NCBI GenBank assembly: GCA_905233745.1
Contig: CAJODA010000004.1
Coordinates: 1-62,700 of the forward strand
Reading direction: 5' to 3'
Length of the DNA stretch: 62,700 nucleotides
Origin: an uncultured Bacteroidales bacterium
GTDB lineage: Bacteria; Bacteroidota; Bacteroidia; Bacteroidales; WCHB1-69
The stretch's first letter is position 1. Every line of letters starts with the position of its first letter. The notes below the pieces were generated by a model that saw nothing but the letters and a program-made list of their open reading frames with translations, had not been told where the DNA came from and searched no databases. Both the position numbers and the translations under genes were made by a program. Shown piece after piece: positions 4,747 through 35,220 of the stretch.

Positions 4747-5346
4747 CTAAAAAATCCTGCTATTCCCCTGGCGCAACTGCTCTTCCGTAGGCTCCATCTG
4801 GGTGATGGTGTCCACTTTTATCTCTATGGGAGGACCGAGTTTTGGCCGTTGAGAGTTGGGTGTTGGAGATTGGGGGTTGGCCGTTGGTTGTTGGGAGTTG
4901 GAGGTTGGTTGTTGGCTGTTAGGAGTTGAACTTTGAACTTTGAACCTAGAGCCTTGAACCTTGGACTCTGAATTTTGGACTCGGTCGCTAGCCGTTGGCT
5001 GTTGGGGGTTGGGGGTTGGGGGTTGGGAGTTGGCTGTTGGAAGTTGGGAGTTGGATGTTGGGAGCTGGGAGTTGGGGGTTGGGGTATTGGGTGTTGGGTG
5101 TTGGGGATTGGGGGCTGGCTGTTTGGTGCTGGTCGTCTCCTGTATTTGATTATGGGATTTGGTGTTATGAATGACGATTACGCCTGCGGTTATAGAAACC
5201 ACCAGGGCGGATACTACAGCGATAGTCCAAGCGGGGAGGCCGGTTTTAATGCCGGCGCGCTTGGCGAAACGTTTCCAGGCGGAATGTTTGTAGGGGTATT
5301 CCGCTTTCTCTGCCTTCTCTTTTATCAATTGGTCAAAATCTGCCAT
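4747..5346 (-). CDS. Single-pass membrane protein (putative anti-sigma-like) with low-complexity PTPNSQ tail
   Basis: Directly follows the ECF sigma gene; cytoplasmic N-terminus, one TM ([21 protein letters not shown]), then heptad P/T/N/S/Q repeats. Confidence 0.65.
4850..5135. repeat. Heptanucleotide GTTGGNN/NNCCAAC array inside a CDS, interrupted by a TTGAAC/TTGGAC-type array
   Basis: Runs such as ttgggggttgggggttgggggttgggagttggctgttggaagttgggagttgg, with ttgaactttgaactttgaacctagagccttgaaccttggac in the middle. Confidence 0.85.
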
Positions 5347-5349
5347 ACC

Positions 5350-5910
5350 TTATTCGTTATACATTTTCACTATCTCGTTTTTGAGACGGGTGCGGGCGGC
5401 GTTCACGTGCCAGGCGGAGGTACCTTCACTGATGCCCATCTGCTGCGCAATCTCGGCGTGCGAGTAGCCGTCAAACACGAACAGGTTGAACACAGTACGT
5501 GTCATGGGCGGCAATTGCTGTATCAGCGAGATGATGGCCTCCGAAGAGAGCGCACCCACAGCAGCGTTCACGTCATAGCCGATCTGTTCTGACTCGGCCA
5601 CATCCGCCAAGTCGGTCATTTCTGCCTTTGGGGCGTACTTGCGACGATGGTCGAGTGCCGCATTGATCATCACCCGTTTCATCCACGATTCGAAAGAACC
5701 CGTGTTTTCATATTTGTCAAGGTTGGAAAACACTTTCAAGAAACCTTCGCTGAGCATATCCTCAGCCTCGTCCGTACTGTCCGCATAGCGCATACAGAGC
5801 CGGAACATGGGGCTATAGAAATGCTTGAAAAGCTTCTGCTGCGCTCTCGGGCTGCCGTTTCGACAGCCTTCCAGCCAACGAGCCGTTCTTGCATTGTCAT
5901 GCTCTTTCAT
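5350..5910 (-). CDS. RNA polymerase sigma factor, ECF sigma-70 family
   Basis: Sigma2 ([20 protein letters not shown]) and sigma4 ([45 protein letters not shown]). Confidence 0.92.
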
Positions 5911-5965: not shown

Positions 5966-6568
5966 TTAATTTTTCAAGAACTTGACTCCTAATGAGACAA
6001 CCACCGAATTTTGTTTCCACGTATAGTTATCCGACGTGTTCGGAATCAGCTTGTCGGCAGCAAAATCATAACGCGCATCCAGCGTAACGTGCCCGAAGTC
6101 AAAGCCCAGGCCCACCTGCCCGGCCCATTGCATCTTGCCTTCCTGATCCACCAGAGGATCAATTTCTTTCAAGTTGCTTCCGATCCTGAATCCGAAGCGC
6201 GGCCCGATGAACAAATGCATTTTGAATTTCTCTTTATTGATGAAATGGTAGCCCAACAATGCCGGAACGTCAATGAAATGCTGATGAAGTTGGACATTCT
6301 CCTGAACATTATGTACGAATGAGCTCGCATCTGTCAGTTTGGTGTTTTTGAATGAATAGCACACCTCCGGCTGAAAGTAGAACCGATTGCCAAAGCGCAT
6401 GAAAAAGCCGGCGTCCACTCCTGGGGAAAGCCGGGTCTGCTTGTTGTAATTGGTGGCATTGGCCGCCACCTTGATGCCGATATTGAACTGTGCATTGGCA
6501 CAAACGGACAAGCCCAACAATAAAACGGACAACAGCAACACTCTTCTCAACAGGATTACCTTTTTCAT
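5966..6568 (-). CDS. Outer-membrane beta-barrel (porin/PorT-like) family protein
   Basis: Signal peptide; alternating strands; NIGIKVAANATN..., C-terminal VVVSLGVKFLKN. Confidence 0.75.
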   Translation of the reverse strand: MKKVILLRRVLLLSVLLLGLSVCANAQFNIGIKVAANATNYNKQTRLSPGVDAGFFMRFGNRFYFQPEVCYSFKNTKLTDASSFVHNVQENVQLHQHFIDVPALLGYHFINKEKFKMHLFIGPRFGFRIGSNLKEIDPLVDQEGKMQWAGQVGLGFDFGHVTLDARYDFAADKLIPNTSDNYTWKQNSVVVSLGVKFLKN

Positions 6569-33811: not shown

Positions 33812-33912
33812 GAGGGGTAAACGGTAAAAGGGGTGAAGGGTGTAAAGGGGGTAAAGGGGGTGAATGGGGTGAATGGGGTGAATGAGGTAAAAGGGGTGAA
33901 TGCGGTGAAGGG
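33812..33912. repeat. Degenerate 9-nt array (GGGGTGAAT)n filling the murA-GT2 spacer
   Basis: gggggtgaatggggtgaatggggtgaatgaggtaaaaggggtgaatgcggtgaaggg. Confidence 0.9.
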
Positions 33913-35220
33913 TTATTTGCGGCGTTCGATGGCAGCGCCCAAGTCGTTAAGGCGTTCCACGATATATTGGTAACCGCGGTCGATTTGCTCGACGTTCTGG
34001 ATAACGCTGGTACCCTTGGCGGACAACGCAGCGATAAGCAGGGATACACCCGCACGAATATCCGGAGAGTACATCGTCGTGGCACGTAGAGGTTTACGGC
34101 GTTCAAGTCCGATAACAATTGCCCGGTGGGGATCGCAAAGGGTAATCTGCGCGCCCATCGACTGCAGGTTATCAACAAAGAAGAGGCGGCTCTCGAACAT
34201 CTTCTGATGGATAAGCACGCTGCCACGGGCTTGGATGGCGGTCACAAGTGCGATGCTGATCAAGTCGGGAGTGAAGCCGGGCCACGGGGCATCCGCAATG
34301 GTGAGGATGGAGCCGTCCATGTTGGTCTCCACTTCGTAGAAATCCTGCTCGTGGACCACAATATCATCGCCCTGCAGCTCAAAGTCGATGCCGAGTTTCT
34401 TGAAGGTATAGGGAATGATGCCCAGATGCTGGCATGAACAATCTTTGATTGTAATCGAAGACTGATTCAGGGCGGCCATGCCGATAAAGCTGCCGATCTC
34501 AATCATGTCGGGTAAAATGCGGTGTTCGCAGCCGTGCAGTTTCTCCACACCTTCTATGGTAAGCAGGTTTGATCCGATTCCGGAGATGCGGGCGCCCATA
34601 TTGTTCAGCATAGTACACAGCTGATAGAGATAGGGTTCGCACGCTGCATTGAAGATGGTGGTCTTGCCCTCCGCCAGCACGGCAGCCATCACAATGTTGG
34701 CCGTGCCCGTCACGGAGGCCTCGCTGAGCAGCATGTAAGTGCCTTTCAGATGTTCGGCCTCAAGCTGGAAGAAGTTGCCATCATCCGAAAGATGGATGTT
34801 TGCGCCGAGATTCTCAAAACCTTCAAAGTGGGTGGTAAGCGGACGACGGCCGATCTGATCACCTCCGGGGCGACCAGCGTAAGCCTTGCCAAATCGCGCC
34901 AAAAGCGGTCCGAGCACCATAATGGAAGCCCGAATGGAAGCCGACAACTTGCCAAACTCCGGAGTCGTCAACATCTCAAGATTCACGTCATCAGCCTGAA
35001 AAGTAAACGTGTCCTTGCTGATCTCGGTAATCTTCACTCCCATCAATGAGAGAATGTCCTTATAGCGCCGCGTATCACGGATGTCCGGCAGGTTAGATAT
35101 GGTAACCGGCTCCGAGGTGAGCAGCACAGCAGACAGCACCTGGAGGGCTTCGTTCTTAGCCCCTTGGGGAATAATCTCCCCGTGCAACTTATGACCGCCT
35201 TCTATGATAAACTCTGACAT
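33913..35220 (-). CDS. murA: UDP-N-acetylglucosamine 1-carboxyvinyltransferase
   Basis: GGHKLHGEIIPQGAKNEALQVLSAVLL; GRPGGDQIGRRPL; catalytic region SEASVTGTANIVMAAVLAEG. Confidence 0.94.
   Translation of the reverse strand: MSEFIIEGGHKLHGEIIPQGAKNEALQVLSAVLLTSEPVTISNLPDIRDTRRYKDILSLMGVKITEISKDTFTFQADDVNLEMLTTPEFGKLSASIRASIMVLGPLLARFGKAYAGRPGGDQIGRRPLTTHFEGFENLGANIHLSDDGNFFQLEAEHLKGTYMLLSEASVTGTANIVMAAVLAEGKTTIFNAACEPYLYQLCTMLNNMGARISGIGSNLLTIEGVEKLHGCEHRILPDMIEIGSFIGMAALNQSSITIKDCSCQHLGIIPYTFKKLGIDFELQGDDIVVHEQDFYEVETNMDGSILTIADAPWPGFTPDLISIALVTAIQARGSVLIHQKMFESRLFFVDNLQSMGAQITLCDPHRAIVIGLERRKPLRATTMYSPDIRAGVSLLIAALSAKGTSVIQNVEQIDRGYQYIVERLNDLGAAIERRK

Follow-up and report, generated by a model that had tools for sequence, protein, structure and literature searches.

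In many bacteria, few long tandem repeats are as common as heptamer arrays. Direct repeats of the heptamer TAACTGA have been described in Beggiatoaceae, cyanobacteria and some Bacteroidetes (MacGregor 2015, PMC4679880), and GGGNATC heptamer arrays, which are under-represented on the coding strand of open reading frames (ORFs), in Xanthomonas and Nostoc (Rehm 2015, PMC4692102); a literature search for heptanucleotide repeats in the phylum studied here found only these two papers. Long simple sequence repeats (SSRs) with units of 5–11 nt, heptamers being the commonest, were reported by Mrazek 2007, according to the account of that work given in PMC4679880.

The arrays analysed here share with the TAACTGA repeats a 7-nt unit, a mostly intergenic location, a patchy distribution and an admixture of other heptamers; in both systems one orientation is stop-free and encodes one heptapeptide (LSVISYQ in theirs), and some sets lie within ORFs, there at the protein periphery (PMC4679880). 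Unlike the TAACTGA repeats, which consist of one fixed word in mostly short sets, the present arrays are longer, use degenerate words and differ between species as dialects, and their occupancy of linkers in conserved genes is established by comparison of orthologues; neither TAACTGA nor its reverse complement is the word among the units read. With the arrays of Rehm 2015 (PMC4692102) they share intergenic heptamers whose G-rich strand reads as sense downstream of stops and as antisense upstream of starts, a G-quadruplex-prone composition (seen here as a motif only) and under-representation on the coding strand of ORFs. The Rehm words GGGNATC and GGGGA(C/T)T are not those of the present arrays, which occur in another phylum and turn over between species, whereas the Rehm arrays prefer four units and are associated with raised genomic stability around the repeats. 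An excess of heptamers is common to the SSRs of Mrazek 2007, for which slippage was proposed; in those, as PMC4679880 relates, multiples of 3 are likeliest in coding regions, unlike the 7-nt units found here in coding linkers. Heptamer arrays (PMC4679880, PMC4692102), one-sided stop-freedom and some ORF-internal sets (PMC4679880) are already known. What appears to be new is the repeated occupation of linkers and the existence of species dialects: in the literature searched, which is not complete, we came across neither species-specific word sets nor linker occupancy anchored by orthologues.

The window, by which we mean the whole 62,700-nucleotide stretch analysed, contains a heptamer array at approximately 4839–5132, within a minus-strand ORF at 4747–5346. 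Our reading, which we consider likely, is that a degenerate heptamer array, one of a genome-wide class of 7- and 9-nt spacer repeats, took over the linker of a conserved membrane protein encoded beside an ECF sigma factor gene, a length-tolerant stretch that joins the transmembrane segment to the C-terminal motif. We observe common word families, the linker position, kept protein ends, a homologue in the sister species, recurrence in further genes, polA among them, and words that differ by species.

The array comprises two blocks of CCAACNN on the coding strand flanking a block of a second heptad resembling GGTTCAA/TTGAACC. On the minus strand, block A (4992–5132) has approximately 20 units with one 8-nt step, the second type together with its junction occupies 4930–4990, and block B (4839–4929) has 13 units. 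Unit parsing yields 33 CCAACNN-like units, spaced by exactly 7 nt inside blocks with that one exception. Tandem Repeats Finder (TRF) reports period-7/21 arrays at 4842–4928 and 4994–5123 and a TTGAACC-type array at 4926–4972, and three copies of TTGAACN match without mismatch at 4926–4945. The linker DNA has a lag-7 identity of 0.67 (z = 13.4), equalled by none of 2,000 codon shuffles, and identities of 0.23–0.42 at lags 4–6 and 8–10. The locus thus consists, like bacterial heptanucleotide long SSRs, of 7-nt tandem units far above chance. The preliminary description had placed a heptanucleotide array in a coding region at 4850–5135; TRF, lag-7 identity and unit parsing all bear out the array itself, with its boundaries corrected as above. 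A higher-order 21-nt period is not significant in the coding array (unit lag 3, p ~0.4), so frame-keeping duplication in three-unit steps is not visible.

Because 7 mod 3 is 1, changes of register inside the array cost nothing within it. The same principle, that an oligomer repeat whose unit length is not divisible by 3 reads alike in all frames, was reportedly set out on theoretical grounds by Ohno in 1984, in a work whose title PMC3654881 cites; the array analysed here is an example from nature, with a degenerate core free of stops. Both CCAACNN and NGTTCAA are free of stops in every frame for any N, whereas for TTGAACN each frame contains TGA, and a TAG can arise in NNGTTGG. Translated, the C-rich sense reading gives hydrophilic heptads of Pro, Thr, Asn, Ser and Gln (PTPNSQ), and the G-rich reading peptides rich in Trp, Leu and Val. 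The actual array departs from this ideal: stops are absent from two sense frames and number 3 in the third, and the antisense frames contain 4, 2 and 3 of them. The earlier idea of frame-neutral entry of a 7-mer array is borne out, the sense orientation being the stop-free one, and the accompanying statement that such an array has no stops and encodes the same heptapeptide in all frames holds for ideal arrays, where it could even have been put more strongly given that CCAACNN and NGTTCAA exclude stops at any N, but not for the real one. With 2–4 stops per antisense frame, antisense openness applies to parts of the array and not across it, and we rejected it as a special property; the ORF at 4975–5592 lies mostly outside the array. 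Finally, an array was proposed to change length without breaking its gene. This is correct for net changes in multiples of 3 nt, but gains or losses of one or two units would shift the frame of the conserved C-terminal motif; with conserved sequence beyond the array, the net insertion has to be divisible by 3.

The ORF at 4747–5346 encodes a 199-aa protein with a single transmembrane segment, judged by eye from the sequence, and in the congeners read its orthologues come immediately after the same sigma gene. The conserved N-terminus and transmembrane segment (approximately residues 1–62; 5161–5346, minus strand) are 0.66 identical to those of the sister genome G016 and 0.34–0.59 identical to those of other congeners. 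A C-terminal motif of 29 residues (4750–4836, minus strand) follows the array in frame, with identities of 0.82 to G016, G024 and G030 and 0.40–0.68 to others. The genus-wide conservation of this motif led us to reject the view of the array as a C-terminal tail: with conserved sequence in frame beyond it, the array is a linker and the protein the product of a real gene. Upstream on the same strand lie the ECF sigma factor gene (5350–5910; Pfam Sigma70_r2, 4.7e-15, and r4_2, 3.7e-14; the match to the Bacteroidota-type model TIGR02985 is below its cut-off) and, in the same neighbourhood, a gene for an outer-membrane beta-barrel protein (5966–6568, minus strand; Pfam OMP_b-brl_2, 2.3e-20). Orthologues of the sigma factor occur in 32 of 61 genomes, all of the same genus. 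As in ECF anti-sigma genes, the ORF is beside the sigma gene, co-directional with it and encodes a single transmembrane segment. The protein has no Pfam or NCBIfam match above cut-off and matched no known anti-sigma family, so that 'anti-sigma-like', the earlier label, is a putative assignment from gene neighbourhood.

Orthologues downstream of the same sigma gene were read in 28 other congeneric genomes, one per species (G004 was missed by the motif used). All 28 have a conserved N-terminus with transmembrane segment, a variable hydrophilic linker of 71–99 aa and a C-terminal motif conserved around VDTI(T/K)xxxPTDEEL. Linker length in the comparison ranges from 71 to 106 aa, and the linker of the window is only 0.15–0.39 identical to those of congeners; the array is thus variable while the ends of the gene are kept, rather than conserved in sequence and length as a selected tail had been expected to be. 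In the sigma factor tree the window genome and G016 are sisters (support 99/93), and the strongly heptamer-periodic linker is confined to these two (G016 lag-7 identity 0.57, z = 10). Their heptads differ, G016 using AATCCNN and CCAAAAG words besides CCAAC. G024, next to this pair, has a short plain linker. The linker of G030 (L078:1010–1270) holds approximately 4 decayed copies of a dispersed palindrome, GTAGAGACGCA...TGCGTCTC, which has 25 perfect-arm copies in that genome. With heptamers in one pair of species and palindrome copies in another, the linker is a settling site for different dispersed repeats. A dispersed 22-nt palindrome, GAGACGCA-N6-TGCGTCTC, also occurs at 28 places in the window genome, its central six bases usually self-complementary as well.

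Short tandem repeats misassemble easily and the window comes from a fragmented draft genome of 130 contigs, which raises the prospect of an assembly or gene-calling artefact. We regard this as highly improbable, since the frame is intact through the array into the conserved C-terminal motif, the independent genome G016 has the same architecture, and like insertions recur in other genes and genomes.

The linker might instead be a selected PTPNSQ protein repeat, acting as a spacer or binding segment, with the DNA periodicity as its by-product. Consistent with this, a linker of at least 71 aa is present in every orthologue read, and the linkers of the other congeners are hydrophilic too. Further, unit position 7 is more conserved where it falls at codon position 2 (10 of 11 are C), which hints at some protein-level constraint. 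By contrast, the core of the coding array is fixed at 22 of 23 four-fold synonymous sites while its residue-changing N positions are mostly variable, and the entropy profile of the heptamer closely resembles the one seen in the genome's intergenic arrays. The same unit rules apply outside genes. The linkers of other species have no sequence in common, and the array alternates with an unrelated heptad type. The pattern follows heptamer position, not codon position, and the array looks DNA-driven; selection for the peptide repeat as its origin seems to us quite improbable.

The takeover that we favour draws on a genome-wide class of arrays. Tandem periodicity was surveyed in 403 kb selected around arrays and in 400 kb sampled regardless of them; in both it is mainly of 7 and 9 nt and their multiples. 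Most arrays occupy short spacers: in the latter sample 11 of 13 lie in spacers, with up to 89% of the DNA in ORFs of at least 150 aa, an over-representation in non-coding DNA like that of heptanucleotide SSRs. Their words include GTTGGNN, TTGAACN and GGTGAAN, and a GGTGAA core is common to 7-nt words and 9-nt words of the GGGGTGAAT type. In the window, a 9-nt array (33813–33915) fills the spacer between murA and the next gene; the corresponding spacer contains other repeat words (heptads) in G030, G024 and G019 and no array in G004, G001 and G005. Companion 9-nt arrays of GGGGTGAAT/GGGGTACAT words likewise fill spacers at L136:11649–11852 and L153:68–186. Near the start of the window is an intergenic inverted pair (339–476), a GTTGG-type array followed by a CCCAAC-type one, absent before the same gene in G016, G024 and G030; similar G-rich/C-rich spacer pairs occur at L163:3182–3279 and L171:6830–6954. 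Across the phylum, four tandem copies of CCAACNN occur in 39 of 398 genomes and 20 genera, with a patchy distribution.

The orientation of these arrays bears on another explanation, that they are functional elements at the DNA or RNA level (G-quadruplexes or hairpins, for example in termination or translation control) and that the copy in the gene is kept for that function. The ratio of G-rich to C-rich sense strands is 28:10 near stops and 4:30 near starts (Fisher 9e-8), the strand rule of Rehm 2015, as counted from crude gene calls in stretches picked for their arrays, the array-blind sample being too small to confirm it. All 11 inverted pairs run G-rich then C-rich, with arms that are not exact complements. 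As a sequence motif, a canonical G-quadruplex (G3+N1-7) occurs on the plus strand, antisense to the coding array, at 5004–5027 and again at 5060–5114, and 4 of the 6 such motifs of the window fall in these arrays; for other heptamers the same rule and in vitro G-quadruplex folding have been reported (PMC4692102). This account nevertheless appears unlikely to us, given that several congeners lack arrays in the same spacers, that most orthologues of the 4747–5346 gene lack the array, and that the orientation counts come from array-selected stretches.

Heptamers have entered other coding sequences as well. In polA, an insertion lies between the 5′–3′ exonuclease and the 3′–5′ exonuclease-like domains (L144:7168–7213). 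At this site the words are of the CCAAC type in the window genome, G016 and, judged from the protein, G029; G004 and G033 have TCTCACY words there and G030 has CCCTGA words, whereas more distant congeners show no period. A GH97 glucosidase carries a heptamer insertion of approximately 24 residues relative to solved homologues, another protein a heptamer array in its T9SS sorting tail, and the pseudouridine synthase of G012 an array at its N-terminus. Inside recognisable genes the C-rich strand is the sense strand. Words within genes tend to match those of the spacers of their own genome: arrays of three TCTCACN units number 31 in G004, 21 in G033, 1 in G030 and none in the window genome, and AATCCNN arrays number 11 in G016 (control 2) and 1 in the window genome (control 2). 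The words do not follow the dialect everywhere, since G016 has 32 TCTCACN arrays, mostly of the TCTCACR form, and yet its polA array is CCAAC-type.

Another explanation is purely local replication slippage, in which each array grows from a chance short duplication on site with no exchange between sites. For heptamers among the long SSRs of bacteria, slippage is what has been proposed in print (Mrazek 2007, as summarised in PMC4679880), and several spacer arrays show a 14-nt alternation that fits local duplication. On this model alone one would not expect the same words at many unrelated loci of a genome, changing together between species, nor a coding array whose neighbouring NN pairs lack autocorrelation, nor the absence of periods 5, 8 and 10 among the arrays in the period surveys; we think it improbable as the full explanation. 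A bolder view, which we hold tentatively and somewhat short of even odds, is that the heptamer dialect of each species is maintained because its arrays are actively copied into one another (concerted evolution, ectopic templating), a process that writes repeats into tolerant linkers, as at the site in the housekeeping gene polA, rewritten with a different heptapeptide per lineage.

For the takeover of the linker, array length may change by slippage or unequal exchange, and copying between arrays would keep them similar within a genome and spread them. Entry into a gene would survive where the site is a linker or loop, where the C-rich strand is sense and so gives stop-free, hydrophilic Pro/Thr/Asn/Ser/Gln heptads, and where the net length is divisible by 3, leaving conserved downstream sequence in frame. 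In-gene arrays thereby offer a natural route from non-coding repeat DNA to protein with the frame kept and the gene unbroken. Because conserved protein anchors the coding copies on both sides, the linker and polA loci offer a clean setting for following word replacement and for weighing copying against local slippage.

Some further repeats were seen at these loci. The polA segments of G004 and G033 (L220, L221) are nearly identical and the sigma factor tree does not group the two genomes, perhaps reflecting gene transfer. In G006, G022 and G012 (L226, L229, L231), which form a separate clade, polA has a possible other repeat at the same site, encoding RANxRDPxxxxIERSEII. Lastly, positions 1–340 of the window contain the C-terminal part of an ORF with QQGIQQGMQQG repeats (a 12/24-nt tandem repeat at 141–207), of which the G016 homologue has fewer copies.
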